Source of the DNA: Anaerolineales bacterium
GTDB taxonomy: Bacteria > Chloroflexota > Anaerolineae > Anaerolineales > UBA11579
DNA length: 64,000 bases
Direction of reading: 5' to 3'
Assembly (NCBI GenBank): GCA_020059485.1
Contig: JAGVCA010000016.1
Coordinates: 115,890 to 179,889, forward strand
In this document: one piece after another, positions 51,119 to 63,890 of the stretch
Layout: the number at the start of each line of letters is the position of its first letter
How positions within the stretch are numbered: the stretch's first letter is position 1
The notes under the pieces: generated by a model
Told to the model about the DNA's origin: nothing
What the model saw: only the letters and a program-made list of their open reading frames with translations
Databases searched by the model: none
Position numbers and translations under genes: made by a program

Positions 51119-51233
51119 ACCTGCTCCTGTGATCGGAAACTGCCGTAATGTAGAGAATGGAGGTATCTGGGATTATAATAGCTCTGCGCAAGTAACCGGG
51201 GAGGAACTCCCGAATCAATGTCCGGAGGAAACC

Positions 51234-52091
51234 ATGACAGAACGAAAGAAAGTAACCCTGACAACACTGTATAGCAAAGCCGAAAAGGGTGAACCGATCA
51301 GCTGGCTGACCTGTTACGATTACCCGACCGCCTACCTACAGGAGCAAGCGGGGATCGATATGATCCTGGTTGGCGACAGCCTGGGGATGACCATGCTCGG
51401 CTACGACAGCACCCTGCCGGTCACCATGACCGATATGATCCGCCACACCCAGGCCGTGCGGCGCGGCGCGCCGACCGCCTTTCTGATCGGCGATATGCCC
51501 TATATGAGTTACCAGGCCAGCACCGAGGACGCCGTCCGCAACGCCGGCCGGTTCATGGCCGAAGCCTCCTGCGATGCCATCAAGCTGGAAGGCGGTCGTG
51601 AAATGGCCGACCGCATCCGGGCGATCGTGGCTGCCGGCATCCCGGCCTTCGGACATCTCGGCCTGACTCCGCAGAGCGTTGCCGCCCTGGGCGGATTCAG
51701 GCTGCAAGGCAAAGGCGCCGCCCAGGCCAAACGGATCGTGGAAGACGCCCAGATCCTCGAAGAAGCCGGTGCCTGCGCCATCCTGCTTGAGCTGGTCCCC
51801 GACCGGGTGTGCGAGCTGATCACCAAACGCGCCAAAAATTCCCTGATCATGAGCCTCGGCTCAGGGCCGAATGCCCACGGCCAGCTGCTGATCTACCACG
51901 ACATGTTCGGGCTGTACCCCAAATTCACCCCCAAGATGGCCAAAGTATACGGCAATGCCGGCGAGGTGATCCTCTCCGGGCTGCAGGCCTACAACCAGGA
52001 AGTCAAGGATCAAACCTTCCCGGCAGCCGAGAACTACTTCGGCATGAAAGACGATGAGTTCGAAGCGCTGGTTAAGTCTCTCGACAACTAA
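51234..52091 (+). CDS. 3-methyl-2-oxobutanoate hydroxymethyltransferase-like (PanB family)
   Basis: Start at MTERKKVTL; VGDSLGMTMLGYDSTLPVTMTDMIRHTQAVRRGAP, GHLGLTPQSV, LELVPDR; the usual IGIGAG segment reads MSLGSG. Confidence 0.85.
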   Translation: MTERKKVTLTTLYSKAEKGEPISWLTCYDYPTAYLQEQAGIDMILVGDSLGMTMLGYDSTLPVTMTDMIRHTQAVRRGAPTAFLIGDMPYMSYQASTEDAVRNAGRFMAEASCDAIKLEGGREMADRIRAIVAAGIPAFGHLGLTPQSVAALGGFRLQGKGAAQAKRIVEDAQILEEAGACAILLELVPDRVCELITKRAKNSLIMSLGSGPNAHGQLLIYHDMFGLYPKFTPKMAKVYGNAGEVILSGLQAYNQEVKDQTFPAAENYFGMKDDEFEALVKSLDN

Positions 52092-52118
52092 ACACAATGC
52101 ATTTCAGGAGATGAGCAC

Positions 52119-52745
52119 ATGGATTTAAAATCAATTTTCAACTCGGTCCTTGAGGGGGATGCCGAAGCTGTGCGGACCGGCGTCAATCAGATGCTGGAAA
52201 GCGGCGCTTCGGCAGAGTCGATCCTGCATGAAGCCTTGATCCCGGCGATGGATGAAGTCGGCAAGCGCTTTGAGGAAGGCGACTTCTTCGTCCCGGAGAT
52301 GCTGATCGCCGCGCGCGCCATGCAATCCGGCCTCGGACTGCTCAAGCCCCATCTGGCCGAGGGCGATGTCCAGTCTTCCGGTAAGGTCGTGATAGGCACG
52401 GTCAAAGGCGACTTGCATGACATCGGGAAGAACCTGGTAGCGATGATGCTGGAAGGCGCTGGTTTTGAGGTTGTCGATCTCGGCACCGATGTCGACCCGA
52501 CCAAATTCATTGAAGAGGTCCGTAATGGGGCCCAGATCATCGGGATGTCCGCCCTGCTGACCACCACGATGAACAATATGAAAGCCGTGATCGAAGCCAT
52601 TGAGGATATCGGGATGCGCGAGCAGGTCAAGATCATGATCGGCGGCGCGCCGGTGACCGGCGAATATGCCAAATCGATCGGCGCAGATGGTTTCGCCTCC
52701 GACGCTTCCAGCGCGGTGCGCCTGGCGAAAGAGCTGATGGGCTGA
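52119..52745 (+). CDS. Corrinoid protein of a methyltransferase system (MtbC/MttC-type B12-binding)
   Basis: 208 aa; GTVKGDLHDIGKNLVAMMLEGAGFEVVDLGTDV (DxHxxG base-off cobalamin motif). Confidence 0.94.
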   Translation: MDLKSIFNSVLEGDAEAVRTGVNQMLESGASAESILHEALIPAMDEVGKRFEEGDFFVPEMLIAARAMQSGLGLLKPHLAEGDVQSSGKVVIGTVKGDLHDIGKNLVAMMLEGAGFEVVDLGTDVDPTKFIEEVRNGAQIIGMSALLTTTMNNMKAVIEAIEDIGMREQVKIMIGGAPVTGEYAKSIGADGFASDASSAVRLAKELMG

Positions 52746-52777
52746 ACCGCCTGAGGCATTGAGGAGAACGCCCCCAC

Positions 52778-53629
52778 ATGGAAACCAAGCTCAGTTACAA
52801 AGACAACCAGGTCATCATCAGCCCGGATCAACCGTTCAAGATCATTGGCGAACGGATCAACCCCACCCGCCGCAAAAAGCTGGCCTCCAGCATGGCTGCC
52901 GGCGATTTCAGCCTGGTGCAGGAGGACGCCCGCCTCCAGGTGGCAGCCGGAGCGCACATCCTGGATGTAAATGCCGGTGTGCCCGGCGCGGATGAACCCG
53001 CCCTGATGCGCGGCGCAATGCAGGCTGTGATAGAAGTGGCCGAAGTGCCATTGTGCTTCGACAGCGCCAACCCGGATGCGCTCAAAGCCGCCCTGGAACA
53101 CTACCCCGGCAAGGCATTGATCAACTCGACCACCGCCGAAGAAGAGATGATGGGCCGGATCCTGCCATTGGCCAAGGAGTACGGTGCGGCAGTCATCGGG
53201 GTCATCACTGATGATGCCGGCATCCCGGCCACGCCTGAGGACCGCCTGGCGACCGCCAAAAAATTGATCGACCGGGCCGCAGATTACGGTGTGCCCAAAG
53301 AGGACATCATCATCGACGCCCTCGCCCTGACGGTCGGCGCGGACCACAATGCCAGCCGTGTCACCCTGGCCTCGATCGCCCTGATCCGCCGTGAACTGGG
53401 CGTGAACATCAACCTGGGTGCCAGCAACGTCTCCTTCGGCCTGCCCGACCGGGAATATATCAACACTGCCTACCTGGCGCTGGCGATCGCCAACGGTCTG
53501 ACCACGGCTATCACCGACCCGACCAAGCAGGAGATTTCCCTGACCATCATGGCCTGCGACCTGCTGATGGGCCAGGACGAATATGCCATGCGCTGGATCA
53601 GAGCCTATCGCAAGCGCAACCAGGCCTGA
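52778..53629 (+). CDS. Methyltetrahydrofolate:corrinoid methyltransferase (DHPS-fold, AcsE/MtgA-like)
   Basis: 283 aa; IIGERINPTRRKKL, GAHILDVNAGVPG, CFDSANPDALKAAL, NLGASNVSFGLPDREYIN. Confidence 0.92.
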   Translation: METKLSYKDNQVIISPDQPFKIIGERINPTRRKKLASSMAAGDFSLVQEDARLQVAAGAHILDVNAGVPGADEPALMRGAMQAVIEVAEVPLCFDSANPDALKAALEHYPGKALINSTTAEEEMMGRILPLAKEYGAAVIGVITDDAGIPATPEDRLATAKKLIDRAADYGVPKEDIIIDALALTVGADHNASRVTLASIALIRRELGVNINLGASNVSFGLPDREYINTAYLALAIANGLTTAITDPTKQEISLTIMACDLLMGQDEYAMRWIRAYRKRNQA

Positions 53630-53702: not shown

Positions 53703-55025
53703 TCAGTCGATCTGAGTGAGCAGCGTTTCCACCTGCTCCAGTAGGTCGGACATCTCGTGCTGGCGGTAGATGGCCGCGGCCTGCTCCAGGTGTTCGCGGG
53801 CCTCCTGCGGCTTGTCCAGATCCAGCAAGGTCATCCCCAACATCACTCCCTGCTCGGCCTGCAGGCGGAATAGCCCCTGCGCTTCTGCCACCTCGATTGC
53901 CTCGCGGGCATACTTCATGGCTTCTTCCAGCTCGCCAAGTTCGGCCTTCACCGCGCTCAACTTGCCGCCAACCTCCGCCAACCGGGGGGCATTCTGCATC
54001 TGGGCAGCAAGTTGGTATGCCTCGGTCAACAATTCTTCTGCCTTCTGCAGATGGCCGCCAAAATAAGCGGCCAGGCCCTGCTGGGCGATCAGTTCCATCT
54101 GCCATTCCCGATCGTGGACTTCCTTCGCCAGCGCCAGCCCGCGTGCCAGGATCGGTTCGGCGCGATCGAATTCTCCCTGTTCCAGTAAATAGTTGCTCAA
54201 GTAGCGAATATTTTCCGCCTCTGCGCCTGGGTCATTGATCTCGCGCGCCAACCGCAACGTCTGTTCGCCATTGAATAAGGCCATCCCCAGATCCGCTTGC
54301 CGGATGCTGAGTTGCGTGAGTTGCTCAAAGGCAGCGAATTGGATGTTTTGGTTTTGCAGCCGAGCCCCAATGTCGAGGGCGTTTTTAAAGTGTTCTTCCG
54401 CCGCGCCGAAATCATCCGAGCCCAGGTAGATCTGCCCAATTGCCACCTGGTACTGGCTGTTTGCTTCCTGGTTGTTCAGGGCTTTGGCAGCCTCCAGGGC
54501 GATCGAAAAAGATTCCATCGCTTTGTGCGGCTGTTCCATCGCCAGGAAGAGACCGCCCATTAACCCTGAAATGTGCATCTCGCGTTGGTTGTCGCCAATC
54601 TCCGAAGCCTGCCGGTAAGCATGCTGCAGGTCTTTGACCGCTTTCTCAGGCTCGCCGATCCCCAGTTGCAGCTTTCCGAGCTGGGTGTAGGCATCAATCA
54701 TGATCGGAATATGACCGATCTTCTCTGCGAGCTTGCGGGACCGGTTGAATGCCTGGAGAGCCTGCCGGGTATTCCCGATCCGGTTCAGACACAAACCCTT
54801 GACTCCCTCCAAACGGGCCAGGTTGACCTGGTCCTGCATTTCTTTCGCCAGTGAAAGCCCTTCTTCCACATTCGTCAATGCCTTGGGCGCATCCCCCTGC
54901 TTCAGGTACAACGAAGCCAGGCGGGTCAGGCTGTCGAGCAAGCCAGGTTTATCCTGCCCGGCGCGTTGTGTTTCGATCTGTTCAAGCAATCCTTGGACAG
55001 CCTGATCTTCCTCTTTGTTCATCAT
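53703..55025 (-). CDS. TPR repeat protein
   Basis: 440 aa; repeated helical TPR units (A.AL..Y...A....D). Confidence 0.85.
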   Translation of the reverse strand: MMNKEEDQAVQGLLEQIETQRAGQDKPGLLDSLTRLASLYLKQGDAPKALTNVEEGLSLAKEMQDQVNLARLEGVKGLCLNRIGNTRQALQAFNRSRKLAEKIGHIPIMIDAYTQLGKLQLGIGEPEKAVKDLQHAYRQASEIGDNQREMHISGLMGGLFLAMEQPHKAMESFSIALEAAKALNNQEANSQYQVAIGQIYLGSDDFGAAEEHFKNALDIGARLQNQNIQFAAFEQLTQLSIRQADLGMALFNGEQTLRLAREINDPGAEAENIRYLSNYLLEQGEFDRAEPILARGLALAKEVHDREWQMELIAQQGLAAYFGGHLQKAEELLTEAYQLAAQMQNAPRLAEVGGKLSAVKAELGELEEAMKYAREAIEVAEAQGLFRLQAEQGVMLGMTLLDLDKPQEAREHLEQAAAIYRQHEMSDLLEQVETLLTQID

Positions 55026-55039
55026 GGGGATCTCTCCAA

Positions 55040-55288
55040 TTAAGGTGTTGGTGTGACTGACAACTCGTTGGCTTCCTGGGAGGGCGTCGGTTCCATCTGA
55101 TTCCAGTTCTCATACGCTTCAGGATCGACCTCAAAATTTTCCAAGGTTGGTCGGACAAACGCCGGGTTGGCATCACCCCCATCGCCTAGCAAGGCGTCCA
55201 CCCATTGAAAGGCAACCAGGAGTACAGAGATTGCTACAAATCCGAACAGAAGAATATTCTTCAGCCGGTTTCGGGAGTTTTTCGCCAT
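55040..55288 (-). CDS. Small single-TM hypothetical protein
   Basis: 82 aa; MAKNSRNRLKNILLFGFVAISVLLVAFQW; overlaps the end of the RdhC-like gene. Confidence 0.6.
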   Translation of the reverse strand: MAKNSRNRLKNILLFGFVAISVLLVAFQWVDALLGDGGDANPAFVRPTLENFEVDPEAYENWNQMEPTPSQEANELSVTPTP

Positions 55289-56511
55289 TTCTTCCAGACC
55301 TCCAATACCCAGCGGCGGACCTCGGTGATCACATCATAAACCGGGTCCAATGGACAGAGAAAATTGCAAAACGGGCGATACATCACCAGGCTGGCAAGTA
55401 CCACCAGGATCAAAAAAATGAACTGAATGGTGGTGCCTTTCAGGTCAAACAATGTGGCAAATGGTTCGTATCCGGCCACGCCCGGCTGGCGCAAGGCCAG
55501 GCCCAGTACCACAGCCGTGAATGCCAGCCCGCGTTGCAACCAGGTGAACAGGTCACGGTATTCGCGCGGTTTGTACAGCCTGGCATTGGTCAATTGCGCC
55601 AGCAGTTCCTGGAATGCGCCAAACGGACAGAACCAGGCGCAGTACGGGTTTTTGGCGTCCACCGTCGTGACGAACAGGATCCCGCCGATCAGGATATACC
55701 AGTACAGGTTGGATTGCCAGTCCGGCCAGAAACCGCTGAGCAGCGAGATCACCATAGAGATCGTAAACGGTGCGGTGTAGATAAATCCGACCACCACCAG
55801 GCCGGTCAGCAGCGTTCCCCAGCGAATACGCTTTTTCCACTGGCTGCTGCGGATCTTATGCCCAAAGTATCCAGCCGTGTACAACCCCAACAGGCTGATC
55901 TCCGGCCAGCCGAACTTGATCGGTTTCTTTTCGGGCGTAAGAGGCGCATCCAGTCCATCCCTGGCGATCAACCGGACCGCTTCGCGGGCCGCGCCAGCCA
56001 CCCCCTCCGCGCTCAGTGTCGCCCCAGAGACCGCATCCACCCCGTTCCCGATCGTCAGGTCAGCGGTAAATTGCTGGCCGGTGAACTGATCGACCAATCC
56101 GGCGTTATCGATCAGGCGGAAAAACCCGGGCGACTCTCGCTGCTGCACCAGATACACGCCGATGATCTCACCGGCGGGATCGATCCCCACCAGCATCTCG
56201 ATCGGCCCGGCATAGCCAGCCGCTTCGGCAGCAGCGGCATAACCGACGATCTCGCCATCCGCATCATATCCCACAAACAGCCTGCTCTCGCTCTCCACCC
56301 TGACCGTCCCGGGCAGGACCTCAGGAACCAACGGCAGTATCTCCACGCCGCTGTTGAAATAGCCGAACAGCCAGGCAACCAGGGCAATGGCGAAACTCGC
56401 CACCAGCACTGCCCGGCGCTGTCGAAGGTCCTTTTGTCTCCGGGGAGCAAGGCCTGGTTCAATATTGGTAATTGCGATCAGGTCTTCGGTCATGTTCGGA
56501 TTTTCTCTCAA
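55261..56511 (-). CDS. RdhC/NosR-like membrane protein with FMN-binding domain and 4Fe-4S motifs
   Basis: 416 aa; flavinylation-type motif DAVSGATLSAEGV; multiple TM; CAWFCPFGAF and CNFLCPLDPV. True start may be MTEDLIAI at ~56493. Confidence 0.82.
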   Translation of the reverse strand: MRENPNMTEDLIAITNIEPGLAPRRQKDLRQRRAVLVASFAIALVAWLFGYFNSGVEILPLVPEVLPGTVRVESESRLFVGYDADGEIVGYAAAAEAAGYAGPIEMLVGIDPAGEIIGVYLVQQRESPGFFRLIDNAGLVDQFTGQQFTADLTIGNGVDAVSGATLSAEGVAGAAREAVRLIARDGLDAPLTPEKKPIKFGWPEISLLGLYTAGYFGHKIRSSQWKKRIRWGTLLTGLVVVGFIYTAPFTISMVISLLSGFWPDWQSNLYWYILIGGILFVTTVDAKNPYCAWFCPFGAFQELLAQLTNARLYKPREYRDLFTWLQRGLAFTAVVLGLALRQPGVAGYEPFATLFDLKGTTIQFIFLILVVLASLVMYRPFCNFLCPLDPVYDVITEVRRWVLEVWKKWRKTPETG

Positions 56512-56524
56512 TTGATAAGAAACA

Positions 56525-56555
56525 AAGAGGGAGGGATGTTGACACCCTCCCTCTT
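56525..56555. other. Stem-loop between rdhB-like and rdhC-like genes
   Basis: aagagggaggg-atgttgaca-ccctccctctt, 11-bp stem; no strong U-tract. Confidence 0.65.
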
Positions 56556-56589
56556 CATTATAATCTACGCCAGTCTTTTGCAGCCAGGT

Positions 56590-56796
56590 TTATCCCTTGG
56601 GGGTGCGGACGATCCAGACAACGACGCCTGCGATCAGCAGCACAAAGAATACCACCCAGAAGATCACCGTAGCGGTCGACTGAAGTTCCCGCGCGCTCAT
56701 CAGCGCATTCTGCAGCATAAAGATCTCAGCCAGCAGCCACAACAGCCACAACAGCCATTCTACGACAGGACGAGGTTTGATATTGATCCCAAACAT
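56590..56796 (-). CDS. Small membrane protein, candidate reductive dehalogenase anchor (RdhB-like)
   Basis: 68 aa, mostly hydrophobic helices; directly abuts the rdhA-like gene. Confidence 0.65.
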   Translation of the reverse strand: MFGINIKPRPVVEWLLWLLWLLAEIFMLQNALMSARELQSTATVIFWVVFFVLLIAGVVVWIVRTPKG

Positions 56797-58212
56797 TTAA
56801 CCCTCCAATACCGATGCATCGGTGCTGAAACCATATTCCGGCAGATCCAGGTTCCACCACTCTTCCGGGTCAGCCTGAACGCCGTAGCCAAAAGCGTCGT
56901 CCATCGAGCGATAGAAACCGTCCAGGGCCGGCATGGTGGCGATACCGAAGCGCACCCAGTCGTGGATCCAGGCCTTGTCTTCTTTCGAAAACGGACACAC
57001 CGCAAAACAGATCGTGCAGTTGTTGGTGGATGTGCCGTTCCAGTAGGTCATGCACTTGACGGCATCTTCAAACCATGCCTTATGACCGGGGACATTCCAC
57101 CCGCCAGCGATCTGCCAGGTGGGTTCATCCTCGAAGGAGAGGGCTCCGGACGGGCAGGCTTCTGCGCACTTCTTGCAAGATTTGCAGAATTCCATGATCC
57201 CGGCATCGATCGGTTTGTCTTCGGCCAGCGGCAGGTCGGTGATGATCTTGAAAATGCGGACCATCGGGCCGTATTCGGGGGTGATCACCCGATTCATGCG
57301 GCCCATCTCGCCCATCCCGGAGAGCACGGCATATGCAGGGGTAACTGCCAGCGCATTGATCGAGGCTTCACCCAGCGCCTGGTAACCCAGACCGCGCAGA
57401 AATTCCTGCGTCACGCCCTGAGTGCGGCGGCTCCGGCCGTAGGTGGCCAGTGTCGTTTGGCAAGCGGTGTGGGTCGGAGAGCGCCGCAGCGTCTCAGCAG
57501 ACATCTGCATCGCATAGCAGACTACCCATTCACACTTCTTGGGGATATAACGGGCGTTCTCATCCTCGTAGGCCTGCTCTTCATCTGTGAAGATCAGTTC
57601 CTTGCCATCCGGATCATGCGAGTAAATGAACTTGCGGGTGTCATCGGTCAACTTGTGAATGGTAACCGTTGCCGCGCCGAAGTGCCGCATGGCCGCCCGG
57701 AGCATCTTGGCGGCTTCTTCCGGTGTGCCCGTCCACTTGGGAACACCAAGGGTTTCGGGGGTGTCGGCTTTTTGCGGGCCGAGGAAATATGTCTCGCCGC
57801 GCAGGTCCCACATCTGGGCATTGTAGATTGCCTGGTCTTTGTGAGAATAACCCGGTGTGCCGTTCGCGAGGCGTTCGGCTTTCAGTTTGGCGCCGCTTTC
57901 GGCCAATTGTCCGGGCAGGTCTGCCCCGCCGTGGATGCCCAAACCAGGACCGCGCACGGTCACAGTCTGCTCGCTGAAGCGCTCGTACACATTGTAGTCG
58001 ATCTCGGTGGTCGGCTCGTCAACCGTCTTCACCCACCAGGGGCGTTTTGGTCGGCCGGCCGGGTCTGAGAATTCCGCTTTCGACATCTTTCGGGCGGCAG
58101 GGGCGCTCTGGGGAGCGGCGGCAGTCGTCGCAACTGCAGCTGTACCCAGACCCAAACCCGCCAAACGCAGGAATTCCCGACGGCTAAGCTTTCTCTTCGT
58201 TTTATCTTCCAT
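56797..58212 (-). CDS. Reductive dehalogenase catalytic subunit-like protein (TAT-exported, two 4Fe-4S motifs)
   Basis: Start chosen at MEDKTKRK (AAGGAG upstream). TAT motif SRREFLRLAGLG; CKSCKKCAEACPSGALS and NNCTICFAVCPFSKED; WIHDWVRFGIATMPALDGFYRSMDDAFGYG C-terminus. Confidence 0.87.
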   Translation of the reverse strand: MEDKTKRKLSRREFLRLAGLGLGTAAVATTAAAPQSAPAARKMSKAEFSDPAGRPKRPWWVKTVDEPTTEIDYNVYERFSEQTVTVRGPGLGIHGGADLPGQLAESGAKLKAERLANGTPGYSHKDQAIYNAQMWDLRGETYFLGPQKADTPETLGVPKWTGTPEEAAKMLRAAMRHFGAATVTIHKLTDDTRKFIYSHDPDGKELIFTDEEQAYEDENARYIPKKCEWVVCYAMQMSAETLRRSPTHTACQTTLATYGRSRRTQGVTQEFLRGLGYQALGEASINALAVTPAYAVLSGMGEMGRMNRVITPEYGPMVRIFKIITDLPLAEDKPIDAGIMEFCKSCKKCAEACPSGALSFEDEPTWQIAGGWNVPGHKAWFEDAVKCMTYWNGTSTNNCTICFAVCPFSKEDKAWIHDWVRFGIATMPALDGFYRSMDDAFGYGVQADPEEWWNLDLPEYGFSTDASVLEG

Positions 58213-58372
58213 TGTACAAATCTCCTTGCAGACCATGAGTAGTGGCAGTGGTCTATCACCATCATGATAGCAAAGAGCATTAATTTTGTATGTCAGGGGA
58301 AACAAGCGATCAAGGTCAGGAAATCCACCAAATCATGTGGGGTTTTTCCTGACAAACGGTTCAGGCAGGGAT

Positions 58373-59035
58373 TCAGTCTTTCAAATTATCAAGGATCCCC
58401 AATTTGACCGCGAAACGGACCATCTCGCTGCGGTGCTCGATCTCGAGCTTTTCGAAGGCCCGTTGCCGGTAGGTGTCCACTGTCTTGGGGCTGATGATCA
58501 GTTTATCGCCGATCTCCCGGCTGGTGAACCCCATCGCGGACAGTCTGAAAACCTCTTGTTCGCGTTCGGTCAGATCCTGGAAGCGGATCTCCTCACTGGT
58601 GCCTTCTTCCACATAGGTCGCGATCAGCGCGGTCGCCGCCACCGGATGCAGGTAACGTTCTCCGGCATGGACCGTACGGATGGCATCCAGCAGGCTTTCA
58701 TGGGTAGTGGATTTAGGCACATAGCCATCGGCGCCGGCTTCGATCGCATTAATCACAAATTCCTTGCTGGAATGCATCGACAGGACCACAACTTTCATCA
58801 GAGGCATCTGCTGTTTTAACTGGCGTGTGACCTCGATCCCGCTGATATCCGGCAACCCCAGGTCCACGATCGCGACATCCGGCGAGATCGAAGCGACCAA
58901 TTCAACCGCCCGCTGCCCGGTAGCCGCCTCGCCGACCACGGCCAGGTCCGGCTCGGATTCCAACAGCAAGCGCAGACCATCGCGCAGCACCTGATGGTCA
59001 TCCACCAGCATCACCCGGATCCTGTCAGATCGCAT
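58373..59035 (-). CDS. NarL/LuxR-family response regulator
   Basis: 220 aa; receiver MLVDDHQVLRDGL and HTH LTEREQEVFRLSAMGFTSREIGDKLIISPKTVDTYRQR. Confidence 0.96.
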   Translation of the reverse strand: MRSDRIRVMLVDDHQVLRDGLRLLLESEPDLAVVGEAATGQRAVELVASISPDVAIVDLGLPDISGIEVTRQLKQQMPLMKVVVLSMHSSKEFVINAIEAGADGYVPKSTTHESLLDAIRTVHAGERYLHPVAATALIATYVEEGTSEEIRFQDLTEREQEVFRLSAMGFTSREIGDKLIISPKTVDTYRQRAFEKLEIEHRSEMVRFAVKLGILDNLKD

Positions 59036-60650
59036 TCTGCATCTCCAACTCTGGCAGCGGTACGCGCACCTCGATGGTCGTGCCGGCCCCGACGCGGGAG
59101 TACATTTCCAGCCGCCCGCCGATCAATTCCGCTCGTTCATTCATACTAATCAAGCCGAGGTGACGCCGCCCGTCCTCTGGCCGCACTTCGACCGGGTCGA
59201 ATCCGCGCCCGTCATCCTCGAGCTTGAGATACACCAGGTTCTCGCGCGGCTCAAGTTCGATCACCACTTTCTCCGCTTCAGCATGCCGGACGACATTGGT
59301 CAGCCCTTCCTGCACGATCCGGTACAGCACCATCTCGATGTTCAGCGGCAACTTGGTTTCGATCCGGTTCTTGACCTTGATGCGCAGCCCGGTCTGGCTG
59401 GCGATCTCATCAGCCAGCCCAACAATCGCCGCCCCCAGCCCGAATTCCTCCAGGGCGGGCGGGCGCAGGCTGTACGAAAGATCGCGGATCTCCTGGATCG
59501 TGCCGGAAACCAGCCCCTGCATCTCCGTCAGCTTGGTTTTCAGTGCATCCTGCTCGCACATGTTTTCCAGCGCTTTCAGGCGGATCAACAGGCTCGTCAG
59601 GCCCTGGCCGGCCTGGTCGTGCAGTTCGCGGGCCAGATGGCGGCGCTCGTCCTCCTGCGCAGTCACCAGCGATTCCAGAAGCAGCTGGCGGGCGGCTTCC
59701 TTCTCTCTCAATTTGATCCGCAGCCAGGCATTGGCAACCACCTCGGAGATCTTGGTTCCAATTGCCTCTAGCAACGCGATTTCATCCTCACGCAGTTCGC
59801 GCGCCTGCGGGAATGCCAGGTTGATAACCCCAAACTGGATATTGCGCGCCTCGATCGGGATCGTGATATGTTGGGCAGCCACACCTTGCAGCCCACGGCC
59901 TTCGAGCAGCCGACATTGCTCAACCATGATCTCCCCACCCAGCACGCCAGCCTCCAGGGCCCGCTGGCTCTCACATGGCTGCCCGCCATCCGTCTGCAGC
60001 AGGGCCGGCTGGACCGCCTCGGGGACGCCGCGCCAGCTCGCCAGGTGCATTTTGTGGACCTCGGGGTCATACAGATACACCCAGCCATATTCCAGGCCGA
60101 GCAGGTCGAGCATGCTTTCCAGCGTTAGAAACAGGACATCATGGATCTCGGATTCCCGATCTGCCGCCAGGGCGATGCGGTTAACCGCTTCCAACTGGCG
60201 GTTGGTCTCTGAGAGGTCTTCCTGGATCGCCACGAAATTGTCGATCATCTGGTTGACCGATTCGGCCATCGAACCGATCTCATCTCTGGCCCAGACTTCC
60301 GCTCGCAGGTGATATTCACCTGCAGCCACCCGCTTTGCGGTCTGTTTCAGTGTGTCGATCGGATTGGTCAGAATATAGACCAATAAAAGGAGCAGGATGA
60401 TAGAAAGGAAGGCAGCGATCCCGGTCACAAACATCACACTGCGGCTGCCGGCGTTCATCGCGGCTTCTACCCGCGTATCGGTCAGAATATACGAAAGCCA
60501 GTCCGCTAAGCCGGTCGTGATCCAGTAATTCAGGCTGAACCCAAGGATCAGCACCGGTAGCACTCCGATCCCGATGATCTTCCAGCGGATCGGGACCGAG
60601 AGCACCAGTTGTCTGATCGTTCGTTGGATCAGGTCAAAGAAATTGTTCAA
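59025..60650 (-). CDS. NarX-like sensor histidine kinase (TM-HAMP-GAF-HisKA_3-HATPase)
   Basis: 541 aa; LARELHDQAGQGLTSLLIRL, NVVRHAEAEKV, DDGRGFDP; 11-bp overlap with the response regulator. Confidence 0.95.
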   Translation of the reverse strand: MNNFFDLIQRTIRQLVLSVPIRWKIIGIGVLPVLILGFSLNYWITTGLADWLSYILTDTRVEAAMNAGSRSVMFVTGIAAFLSIILLLLLVYILTNPIDTLKQTAKRVAAGEYHLRAEVWARDEIGSMAESVNQMIDNFVAIQEDLSETNRQLEAVNRIALAADRESEIHDVLFLTLESMLDLLGLEYGWVYLYDPEVHKMHLASWRGVPEAVQPALLQTDGGQPCESQRALEAGVLGGEIMVEQCRLLEGRGLQGVAAQHITIPIEARNIQFGVINLAFPQARELREDEIALLEAIGTKISEVVANAWLRIKLREKEAARQLLLESLVTAQEDERRHLARELHDQAGQGLTSLLIRLKALENMCEQDALKTKLTEMQGLVSGTIQEIRDLSYSLRPPALEEFGLGAAIVGLADEIASQTGLRIKVKNRIETKLPLNIEMVLYRIVQEGLTNVVRHAEAEKVVIELEPRENLVYLKLEDDGRGFDPVEVRPEDGRRHLGLISMNERAELIGGRLEMYSRVGAGTTIEVRVPLPELEMQNAI

Positions 60651-60740: not shown

Positions 60741-62516
60741 CTACAATGGCCAGATCTGCGGAACCATCAGGGTGGCGATCACCAGAATTAGAACTGTCAG
60801 CAGGATCCCGACCTTAGGAAAATCGGTAAACTTATAATTCCCCGGCCCGTACACCAGCAGCGCTGCCGGTTCCAGCGGGGTCAGAAACGAGCAGCTGGCC
60901 CCGACCGCGATCATCACCGCAAAGGTGCGCGGATTCAATCCCAATTGCAGGGCCAGCTGGATGGCAATCGGGACAACCACCACAGCCGCCGCCTGGTTAG
61001 ACATTGGCTGTGTCAGCAGCATCGAGAGCAGGAAAAATCCGACCAGCAGCCACATCGGGTCCAGCCCAGCAGTCAGGTTGGCGATCTGTCCGGCCAAAAA
61101 TCCGGCTGTGCCGGTCACCTGCATAGCCTGGCCGATCGCCAGCATGCTTCCGATCAGGATCAGCACGCGCCATTCCACACTGCGATAAGCCTCTTCCGGA
61201 GTGATGATCCGGGCTGTGAATGCAAAAAATGCGGCGGTCAACACCGCTACACCAAGCGAGACGATATTCAATGCCGCAAGCAGGATCGGTACCAGAAAGA
61301 GTGCTCCGGCCAATACCGCCTGGCGGCCGCGCAACTCCCGCCACCGCACCGGCCGGATCAATCGCAGCGTGTTCTCCCGGTCCAGGATCATTAGCTTACT
61401 GCGGTCACCCTGCACCAGCAGTTCATCGCCGGCAGCCAGACGGATCAACGCCAGCTTTTCCCGGATCACCGCGCCGCTGCGGTTGATGCCCAGCACCTGC
61501 AGGTTGTAACGTTCCCTGAATTTAAGGTCAACCAGGGTGCGTCCGATCATCCGTGAGTTGGGCAGGAGCACCACCTCGAACAGACCAACAGCCTCTGACT
61601 GCAGCTCGTCGTCCTGGATCTTGCGGCGCGGTTTGTGTTCAATCCCTGCGATCGCATCGATTTGAAGCAGGTTGTCACGCGAACCTTCTACCAACAACAA
61701 ATCCCCGCTCTGTAATTCAAGTTCGCTGCGCGGCACCAGGTATCTCTCATCTTCCCTGACGATGCGCAGCACGGTCAATCCCAGGTCATGCCCGAGGCCG
61801 CTTCGCTCCAGAGACTGCCCCACTAGTGGGGAATCAGGCAAGATCTCGATCTCGGTCAGATAAGGCTGCATGTCGAATTCCGCCGTGGATTCTTCCACGA
61901 AACCCCGGTCGGGGATCAGATGGGTACCGATCACCATCATATAGATGATCCCAACTACCAGGATCGGCAGGCCGACCAGGGTCAGCTCGAACATCCCAAG
62001 CGGTGCCAGACCGCCAGTCACCATCAAACCGCTGATCACCAGGTTGGTGGATGTCCCGATCAGGGTTACCGAACTGGCCAGGATGCTGGCAAAAGCCAGC
62101 GGCATCAACAGCCGGGAAGGACTGATCTTCATCTGCCGGCTGATCGATAGTACGATCGGCAGGAAAAAGGCTGTTGCCCCCGTGTTGCTCATAAACGCGC
62201 TCAGGGCTGCTGCCGCGACCATGATTAGCAGCACAAAGCGCGAGGCATCCGTCCCAACCCGGGAGAGGATCTCACGACCGAGGTAATCCACCACCCCGGT
62301 CTGGATCAATGCTGCAGTCAGGATCAGGAGGCCAAGGATCATCAGTACGACCTCACTGCCGAAACCTGCAAAGGCCTGCTCCGGGCTGATCAGACCCCCC
62401 AGCGTAACCAGCAGCATCAGCCCCAGGGCTGTCACATCCGGCGGGACGCGTTCCAGCGAGAAAAAAACCACCGCCAGGACCAACACACCCAGCATGAACC
62501 CGATCTCAAAGGTCAA
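60741..62516 (-). CDS. SLC13-family permease with TrkA-C domains
   Basis: 591 aa; N- and C-terminal permease halves flanking two TrkA-C-like segments (EIEILPDSPLVGQSLERSGLGHDLGLTVLRIVRED..). Confidence 0.88.
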   Translation of the reverse strand: MTFEIGFMLGVLVLAVVFFSLERVPPDVTALGLMLLVTLGGLISPEQAFAGFGSEVVLMILGLLILTAALIQTGVVDYLGREILSRVGTDASRFVLLIMVAAAALSAFMSNTGATAFFLPIVLSISRQMKISPSRLLMPLAFASILASSVTLIGTSTNLVISGLMVTGGLAPLGMFELTLVGLPILVVGIIYMMVIGTHLIPDRGFVEESTAEFDMQPYLTEIEILPDSPLVGQSLERSGLGHDLGLTVLRIVREDERYLVPRSELELQSGDLLLVEGSRDNLLQIDAIAGIEHKPRRKIQDDELQSEAVGLFEVVLLPNSRMIGRTLVDLKFRERYNLQVLGINRSGAVIREKLALIRLAAGDELLVQGDRSKLMILDRENTLRLIRPVRWRELRGRQAVLAGALFLVPILLAALNIVSLGVAVLTAAFFAFTARIITPEEAYRSVEWRVLILIGSMLAIGQAMQVTGTAGFLAGQIANLTAGLDPMWLLVGFFLLSMLLTQPMSNQAAAVVVVPIAIQLALQLGLNPRTFAVMIAVGASCSFLTPLEPAALLVYGPGNYKFTDFPKVGILLTVLILVIATLMVPQIWPL

Positions 62517-62519
62517 CTG

Positions 62520-63890
62520 TCATGCCTCCACTTTAGCGAGCGGCTTTATTTTTCCCGGGCCATTCCTGGAAAGGACCACCCAACCCAACCCGGCGGAGAT
62601 AGCTGAAGCCGCCAGGATTCCGACCTTGGCGTAGCCCAGCAGGACAGGATCGGAAAACGCCAGGTTGGCGATGAACAGCGACATGGTGAAACCGATCCCC
62701 GCCAGCAGGGAAGCGCCATAGATCTGCCGCCAGGAAACACCTCGGATCTTGTTTGAAAGTTTCAGCCGGGTCACCAGCCAGGCCATAAAGGTGATCCCGA
62801 TCTGCTTGCCGGCAACTAGGCCGAAAATGATCCCGAGCGTGATCGGGTGAGTCAGTGCGGTTAGGATGTTCGTCCGCAAATCGACACCGGCATTCGCCAG
62901 GGCAAAGACCGGCATGATGAAGTAAGCCACCCACGGGTGCAGTCCGTGCTCCAATTGCTGCAGCGGCGCTTCAACTGCATTGGTGCAATCCTCGATACTC
63001 TGTAACAGCGCACGCTGCTTTTTGGTCGTAAAGGTCGCACCATCCCGAATGCCATCTCTCTCAAACATATCCAAAAAATGCCTGACCTGGTCAACAAAAC
63101 CTTTTCTGTCGATCAAGGTGGTAGCTGGAATCGTGATCGCCAGAAGGACGCCTGCAATCGTGGCATGTACCCCGGATTTCAAAAATGCCAGCCACAACAC
63201 GATCCCAAGCAAACCATAAGGCAATGGTTTTCGGACGCCGATCCACTGCATGAACATTAAAACGGCAAAAACCACCCCGGCCACGGCCAGACTGGCCCAA
63301 ACAATCTTCTCGGTATAGAAGATCGCGATCACCAGCACCGCGCCTAGGTCGTCTACAATTGCCACGGCTGTCAGGAAGATCTTCAACTGCAGGGGAGCGC
63401 GTTTCCCTAACAAAGCCAGGACGCCCAATGCAAAGGCAATATCGGTGGCCATCGGGATGCCCCAGCCAGATTGTCCGCTTCCGGTGGCGTTGAACAGCAG
63501 ATATATCGCTGCCGGGAAGACCATCCCGCCAACAGCTGCGGCGATCGGGAACAGGGCTTTCTTAAGTGATGTCAGTTCGCCAATCAACAGCTCCCGTTTG
63601 ATCTCAAGCCCGACAACAAGGAAGAAAACTGCCATCAGGCCATCATTGATCCACAGCAATAGAGGTTTGTTGATCTCAAAGGTCCCTACACCGACTTGCA
63701 ACGGGGTATTCCATAAAGCGGTGTAGCTTTCGGACCAGGGCGAATTGGCCCACACCAGTGCGATCAGCATAAAGCTGATCAACAGGATGCCGCTGAATGA
63801 TTCTGCCTTGAAAAACTCTTGGAAAGGCATGGTCAGCCTTTCTCTCGGTGGTTGAAGTCGGAATGTTTTTAGTGGTTTAGGTGTTTCCAT
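62520..63890 (-). CDS. nhaA: Na+/H+ antiporter NhaA
   Basis: 456 aa; GLEIKRELLIGELTSLKKALFPIAAAVGGMVFPAAIYLLFN, GWGIPMATDIAFALGVLALLG, LAIVDDLGAVLVIA-like (VAIVDDLGAVLVIAIFYT). Confidence 0.97.
   Translation of the reverse strand: METPKPLKTFRLQPPRERLTMPFQEFFKAESFSGILLISFMLIALVWANSPWSESYTALWNTPLQVGVGTFEINKPLLLWINDGLMAVFFLVVGLEIKRELLIGELTSLKKALFPIAAAVGGMVFPAAIYLLFNATGSGQSGWGIPMATDIAFALGVLALLGKRAPLQLKIFLTAVAIVDDLGAVLVIAIFYTEKIVWASLAVAGVVFAVLMFMQWIGVRKPLPYGLLGIVLWLAFLKSGVHATIAGVLLAITIPATTLIDRKGFVDQVRHFLDMFERDGIRDGATFTTKKQRALLQSIEDCTNAVEAPLQQLEHGLHPWVAYFIMPVFALANAGVDLRTNILTALTHPITLGIIFGLVAGKQIGITFMAWLVTRLKLSNKIRGVSWRQIYGASLLAGIGFTMSLFIANLAFSDPVLLGYAKVGILAASAISAGLGWVVLSRNGPGKIKPLAKVEA

Follow-up and report, generated by a model that had tools for sequence, protein, structure and literature searches.

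To our knowledge, proven organohalide respiration in the Chloroflexota is confined to the Dehalococcoidia. The rdhAB genes of Dehalococcoides and Dehalogenimonas, which come with histidine kinase (HK) and response regulator (RR) genes, represent the quinone-independent group of reductive dehalogenases (RdhA), and the pceABCT genes of Desulfitobacterium and Dehalobacter encode PceA2B2, a menaquinol:organohalide oxidoreductase. In PceA2B2, the first transmembrane helix (TMH1) of the anchor makes the contact between both PceB subunits (PMC10624902). A hairpin between pceB and pceC has been published for Desulfitobacterium and Dehalobacter (PMC8905343), where PceC is far scarcer than PceA (PMC10624902). 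Without experimental proof, rdhA has been reported before in the Anaerolineales (PMC4959059) and, in the account that PMC9303371 gives of Fincker 2020, in the Anaerolineae.

The window, that is, the whole stretch of 64,000 nucleotides analysed here (Anaerolineales bacterium, contig JAGVCA010000016.1), holds a locus of this kind. The initial annotation had described an rdhABC-like gene set in three minus-strand ORFs running from 58212 to 55261; all three are intact at those positions, and their sequences support the set as a genuine one. The cassette, however, is bigger than first described, with HK and RR genes upstream and orf82 and a gene for a tetratricopeptide repeat (TPR) protein downstream, in the order HK, NarL-type RR, operator, rdhA, rdhB, hairpin, rdhC, orf82, (apbE), TPR. 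Its features are as follows:

59025..60650, minus strand: sensor histidine kinase (HAMP-GAF-HisKA_3-HATPase by Pfam, 541 aa) at the start of the cassette; in the cassettes compared, its ortholog also precedes rdhA.
58373..59035, minus strand: NarL/FixJ-type response regulator (Pfam Response_reg and GerE, 220 aa), with orthologs 52–61% identical adjoining rdhA.
58291..58354, minus strand: predicted operator of heptamer half-sites, seen in 10/10 orthologous promoters.
56797..58212, minus strand: rdhA, corrinoid/Fe-S reductive dehalogenase with a Tat signal (471 aa), assigned from profiles, motifs, PDB alignment and fold model.
56590..56796, minus strand: rdhB-like membrane anchor (68 aa), with orthologs 39–56% identical right after rdhA in related loci.
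56520..56560, minus strand: hairpin of 15 pairs in the rdhB–rdhC gap, a candidate terminator/attenuator or processing site; orthologous gaps hold hairpins of differing sequence.
55261..56493, minus strand: rdhC, NosR/RnfG-like flavoprotein (410 aa) with an FMN-binding domain, SGATLS at 156 and CX3CP at 285 and 376.
55040..55288, minus strand: orf82, small single-TM protein overlapping the rdhC end, conserved in related-locus searches.
53703..55025, minus strand: TPR-repeat protein (Pfam, 440 aa), a cassette member lying downstream of rdhC/apbE in orthologs and also found in the second rdh locus.

Each of the known systems shares part of this arrangement. Like the loci of Dehalococcoides and Dehalogenimonas, the cassette has an RdhA with a Tat signal, from a clade nested among RdhAs of apparently these genera, rdhB directly downstream and a two-component regulator nearby (PMC13390414). 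Unlike them, it includes rdhC, orf82, apbE and TPR genes in its full form, a NarL-type regulator with a HAMP-GAF kinase, and an Anaerolineae host; its anchor has two transmembrane helices, in contrast to three in the Dehalococcoides loci examined. With pceABCT it shares the A-B-C order, the flavinylation motif of the C subunit, the quinone-pocket residues and the B–C hairpin (PMC8905343), but its RdhA falls in another clade, no pceT chaperone was seen, and the anchor lacks the first helix, the one making PceB–PceB contacts (PMC10624902). Sulfurospirillum pceAB provides the best solved RdhA match by sequence and fold, a two-TM anchor (PceB of 74 aa) and an adjacent HK/RR pair; unlike the window, it has norcobamide genes adjacent, no adjoining rdhC or apbE, and an OmpR-type RR acting on CTATW direct repeats (PMC7755780). 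The Anaerolineales single-cell genome An-B22 carries an rdhA in the same order of bacteria (PMC4959059). However, that gene is closest to archaeal RdhA and neither rdhB nor a regulator was found there (PMC4959059), whereas the window has a complete cassette, regulated and resembling the Dehalococcoidia type.

Several lines of evidence identify the RdhA. The search with RdhA profiles proposed in the initial annotation gave 292.8 bits for NCBIfam TIGR02486 (cut-off 160.35; E 4.5e-87, far beyond chance), and PF13486 gave 125.4 bits (cut-off 24.3; E 3.5e-36). The motifs listed there are also in place, namely the Tat signal SRREFL (residues 10–15), whose RR-x-F is kept across RdhA orthologs, and the Fe-S motifs CKSCKKCAEACP and CTICFAVCP. 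The cysteines C343, C346, C349 and C353, together with C387, C399, C402 and C406, make up two 4Fe-4S motifs and are invariant in 68 sequences, with the exception of the nearly invariant C399. The catalytic Tyr/Asn/Arg of Sulfurospirillum multivorans PceA (Y246/N272/R305) align with Y258/N286/R319, which are kept throughout the Anaerolineales clade save for a gap at R319 in L011, where rdhA is split between frames. Among PDB sequences, the protein matched Sulfurospirillum PceA (184 bits) better than Desulfitobacterium PceA (127), NpRdhA (89) and QueG (41). An AlphaFold model of the protein without cofactor, built from the 68-sequence alignment (mean pLDDT 87.7), has PceA entries as its best PDB matches (TM 0.72 on the query for 4ur3), followed by DhPceA and NpRdhA, with QueG at 0.34; the nearest solved relative is 24–27% identical in the structure alignment. 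Loss of the cobamide-binding residues had been named at the outset as evidence against the reading; in the model, the fold is that of cobamide-bound PceA and NpRdhA, and the catalytic residues are in place. In DhPceA, the menaquinone pocket contains the polar residues K489, H495, R499, D515 and Y520 (PMC10624902); in our reading of alignments with PDB relatives, these correspond to K410, H417, R421, D438 and Y443. They do not prove quinone use, since quinone-free organisms share some of them (PMC10624902).

The hydrophobic 68-aa candidate anchor noted at first does abut rdhA, starting at the base after its stop codon. It matched no NCBIfam or Pfam family and no PDB relative was found for it. 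Two hydropathy peaks correspond to two TM helices, versus three in the Dehalococcoides-type RdhB. RdhBs widely conserve an EXE motif in the loop that joins their last two helices; in the window this motif reads ELQ, with the second Glu lost, the only such copy in a subclade whose other members keep E-x-E. The protein is called RdhB-like because, although EXE is absent, its homology to the anchors of related loci is clear. Two-helix anchors of about 68–79 aa accompany the 14-row RdhA subclade that includes the window, and its three sister RdhAs have three-helix, Dehalococcoides-like RdhBs. The helix missing from the two-helix anchors is the counterpart of TMH1 of PceB.

RdhC holds both features initially ascribed to it, a flavinylation motif (DAVSGATLS, fitting [S/T]G[A/S]TX[S/T]) and two CxxxCP motifs (CAWFCP and CNFLCP, at 285 and 376), and it satisfies the published motifs of the RdhC family (PMC5928378). 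FMN_bind (E 3.2e-15) and Fer4_5 (E 3.4e-14) were both matched over cut-off, and the RnfG, NosR and NapH models under theirs, as expected from the mixed architecture of RdhC. The protein shows six hydropathy peaks, one of which (98–116) falls within the FMN domain, and ends at residue 410, without the C-terminal 2x[4Fe-4S] of NosR/NapH. The overlapping orf82 is conserved over its first 59 residues, followed by a Pro/Thr-containing tail, and had no family match in NCBIfam and Pfam profile searches.

In most orthologous loci, orf82 and the TPR gene flank apbE, which encodes the flavin transferase. It is missing from the cassette in the window and in the relative G008, and both genomes carry apbE in a second rdh locus (G000:C27 and G008:C5, respectively); most simply, the two RdhCs of each genome would share one ApbE. 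This second locus has a different RdhA type, and here too rdhC and apbE are grouped with a TPR gene and an ORF for a small membrane protein. The recurrence of TPR and small proteins beside rdhC makes a functional link to RdhC likely. In the window genome (L036:3280-9060) it comprises rdhA, a 97-aa RdhB-like protein with a GENE motif, TPR, rdhC, a small TM ORF and apbE. Its rdhA has no in-frame Tat signal, and a Tat-like peptide, SRRDFLKIAGL, is encoded immediately before it in a different frame, which suggests a frameshift or an assembly error.

Upstream of rdhA, the predicted operator has half-sites TGTCAGG (58354-58348), CCTGACC (58320-58314) and CCTGACA (58297-58291), with start-to-start spacings of 34 and 23 bp. 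The heptamer TGTCRGG or CCYGACA occurred in 10/10 rdhA promoters examined, which are not ten independent events because some come from close relatives; simulated promoter sets held a mean of 0.59/10 and a maximum of 4 (first-order Markov, 2000 runs). The inverted half-sites stand exactly 34 bp apart in seven promoters, that of the window among them, or 12 bp apart in L039 and L047, with further copies at 22–23 bp, spacings near multiples of the helical turn. The paired pattern was absent upstream of the HK genes and of the rdhA genes outside the ten, and it had one other occurrence, probably by chance. The heptamer operator is predicted to be the binding site of the RR. It was also considered as an RNA hairpin and rejected: four of five folded upstream regions lay within two SD of shuffles (L032 alone reached -4.3), and changes in the half-sites fit a DNA heptamer better.

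In every ortholog, the rdhB–rdhC gap folds into a GC-rich hairpin, with a sequence that differs from locus to locus. Stem length surpassed no fewer than 98% of simulations in 7/10 regions, L028, L029 and L030 being the exceptions; for the 15 pairs of the window, 0/300 simulations were as good. Whole-region folding z-scores are modest (-0.95 to -2.55).

The cassette recurs in nine other Anaerolineae genomes, with RdhAs 55–61% identical, and its closest named relatives are Anaerolineae, Anaerolineaceae and Chloroflexota MAGs. The RDH cut-off was passed by 18 of 301 sampled Chloroflexota genomes. RdhAs of the window clade were present in nine of 101 searched genomes, its own included; the other RdhA matches there were mostly more distant RdhA-like proteins or weak QueG-like ones. 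HK, RR, rdhA, rdhB, rdhC, orf82 and the TPR gene stand together in loci of several families, with HK and RR swapped in L032 and orf82 not detected in all of them. In two related genomes, at L010/L046 and L011 (G064:C183 and G076:C162), rdhA is split into two frames by what looks like a frameshift, real or assembly-made, and in two relatives (G030:C185:2792-3412 and G003:C53:13401-14021) tatC lies between two rdhA genes.

In a quick tree with SH-aLRT support and without bootstrap, the window RdhA belongs to a 10-row clade (96) inside a 17-row Anaerolineales clade (99), on an end branch of 0.47, long for its clade. A phylogeny against Dehalococcoidia RdhAs had been suggested initially, and the window clade is indeed nested among RdhAs that probably belong to that class (Dehalococcoides, Dehalogenimonas): these come from genomes of 1.4–2.1 Mb, mostly assembled as one contig and rich in rdhA genes. 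The window has no sufficiently close relative for a dN/dS comparison. Between the two nearest pairs of orthologs elsewhere, dN/dS was 0.037 and 0.047 for rdhA, 0.07–0.08 for rdhC and 0.16–0.17 for rdhB; in these pairs the cassette is under strong purifying selection.

Nothing around the cassette pointed to a recent island insertion: the window holds no tRNA, and GC content does not shift markedly at the locus. On the other strand, panB, an MtgC-like corrinoid protein gene and a methyltetrahydrofolate:corrinoid methyltransferase gene adjoin it in a row (51228-53629), a possible corrinoid-dependent demethylation system. Genes for a CitMHS/SLC13-type transporter with TrkA_C domains and for an NhaA Na+/H+ antiporter precede the HK gene on its strand (60741-63890).

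The genome assembly comprises 2.2 Mb in 63 contigs. Searches recovered CobS, TatC, one ApbE, the complex I subunit NuoH, UbiA-family prenyltransferases and two rdhA genes over cut-off. MqnC, MenD, COX1 and NiFe hydrogenase were not found, nor any menaquinone pathway or oxidase, absences that are weak evidence because the assembly is 70% complete. Several cassette-bearing relatives have MenD, COX1 and hydrogenases, and haem-copper oxidases are present in most of the cassette-bearing relatives.

With reasonable confidence, we read the locus as encoding a membrane-anchored, exoplasmic reductive dehalogenase, most likely serving organohalide respiration or at least the disposal of electrons onto organohalides. 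Of its parts, dehalogenation itself is likely, and support of organohalide respiration is probable. RdhA would bind a cobamide and two 4Fe-4S clusters, be exported by Tat and dock on RdhB at the membrane's outer face. Electrons would enter by the RdhA/RdhB interface, by RdhC or by both, with the ApbE encoded at the second rdh locus attaching the FMN of RdhC. From there they would run over the two clusters to the cobalt for removal of the halogen, with Tyr258 as the presumed proton donor supported by Arg319. The heptamer operator is probably where the HK–RR pair induces rdhAB; the hairpin may keep RdhC under the level of RdhAB. The ELQ anchor, the cassette without apbE, the long RdhA branch and the donor enzymes not found in the genome count against this explanation.

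An improbable but better-surviving alternative is that a working dehalogenase serves detoxification, or makes halogenated substrates degradable, rather than conserving energy. Obligate organohalide respirers carry many rdhA genes, versus two in this genome; respiratory donor enzymes were not recovered here, and organohalides would not be the sole acceptor of most cassette-bearing relatives, given their haem-copper oxidases. However, export by Tat, anchoring in the membrane and an RdhC ready for flavinylation are features of respiratory enzymes, whereas NpRdhA, a catabolic enzyme, is found in the cytoplasm and depends on NADPH (PMC10624902).

A non-halogenated substrate for this RdhA-family enzyme seems quite unlikely. 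The sequence does not reveal the substrate, the nearest solved relative is distant, as given above, and the RdhA relatives in the phylum are mostly known from sequence; against this, the enzyme retains the fold of RdhA together with the catalytic Tyr, Asn and Arg of PceA, and the characterised RdhAs that we know of are dehalogenases. Equally low odds are given to decay, in which a formerly functional cassette is losing its parts, as the change from EXE to ELQ, the loss of apbE, the long branch and the second rdhA with its Tat peptide in another frame would have it; yet all window ORFs are intact, the catalytic and cluster residues complete, the operator and hairpin kept, and apbE exists at the second locus, an arrangement shared by G008. 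A QueG-like epoxyqueuosine reductase, the homology that the initial annotation had named as refuting, is rejected as having a negligible chance, since the weak profile match (TIGR00276, 37.6 bits) is far under the 200-bit cut-off, the fold is much closer to PceA than to QueG, the protein has a Tat signal and rdhBC partners, and a separate QueG-like weak match lies elsewhere in the genome (G000:C60).

Returning to the exoplasmic dehalogenase, we tentatively propose, as a rather doubtful extension, that the Anaerolineales cassette is a distinct respiratory form. Here, a Dehalococcoidia-type RdhA would be combined with an anchor that lost its dimer helix, a gained RdhC-orf82-ApbE module, a TPR maturation/assembly factor and its own NarL-type operator, and the flavinylated RdhC (with orf82) would be the obligate entry point for electrons.

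No description of the complete regulated cassette with ApbE, orf82, TPR and operator, and no organohalide or rdhA report for Anaerolineaceae MAGs, was found in the open-licence literature searched. With a conserved rdhABC that is regulated and under selection, Anaerolineae MAGs would add to the candidate cyclers of natural and industrial organohalides, and the cassette offers defined genes and an operator for testing. It also bears on the role of RdhC, as this clade pairs an anchor without the dimer helix with a linked group of rdhC, orf82 and apbE.
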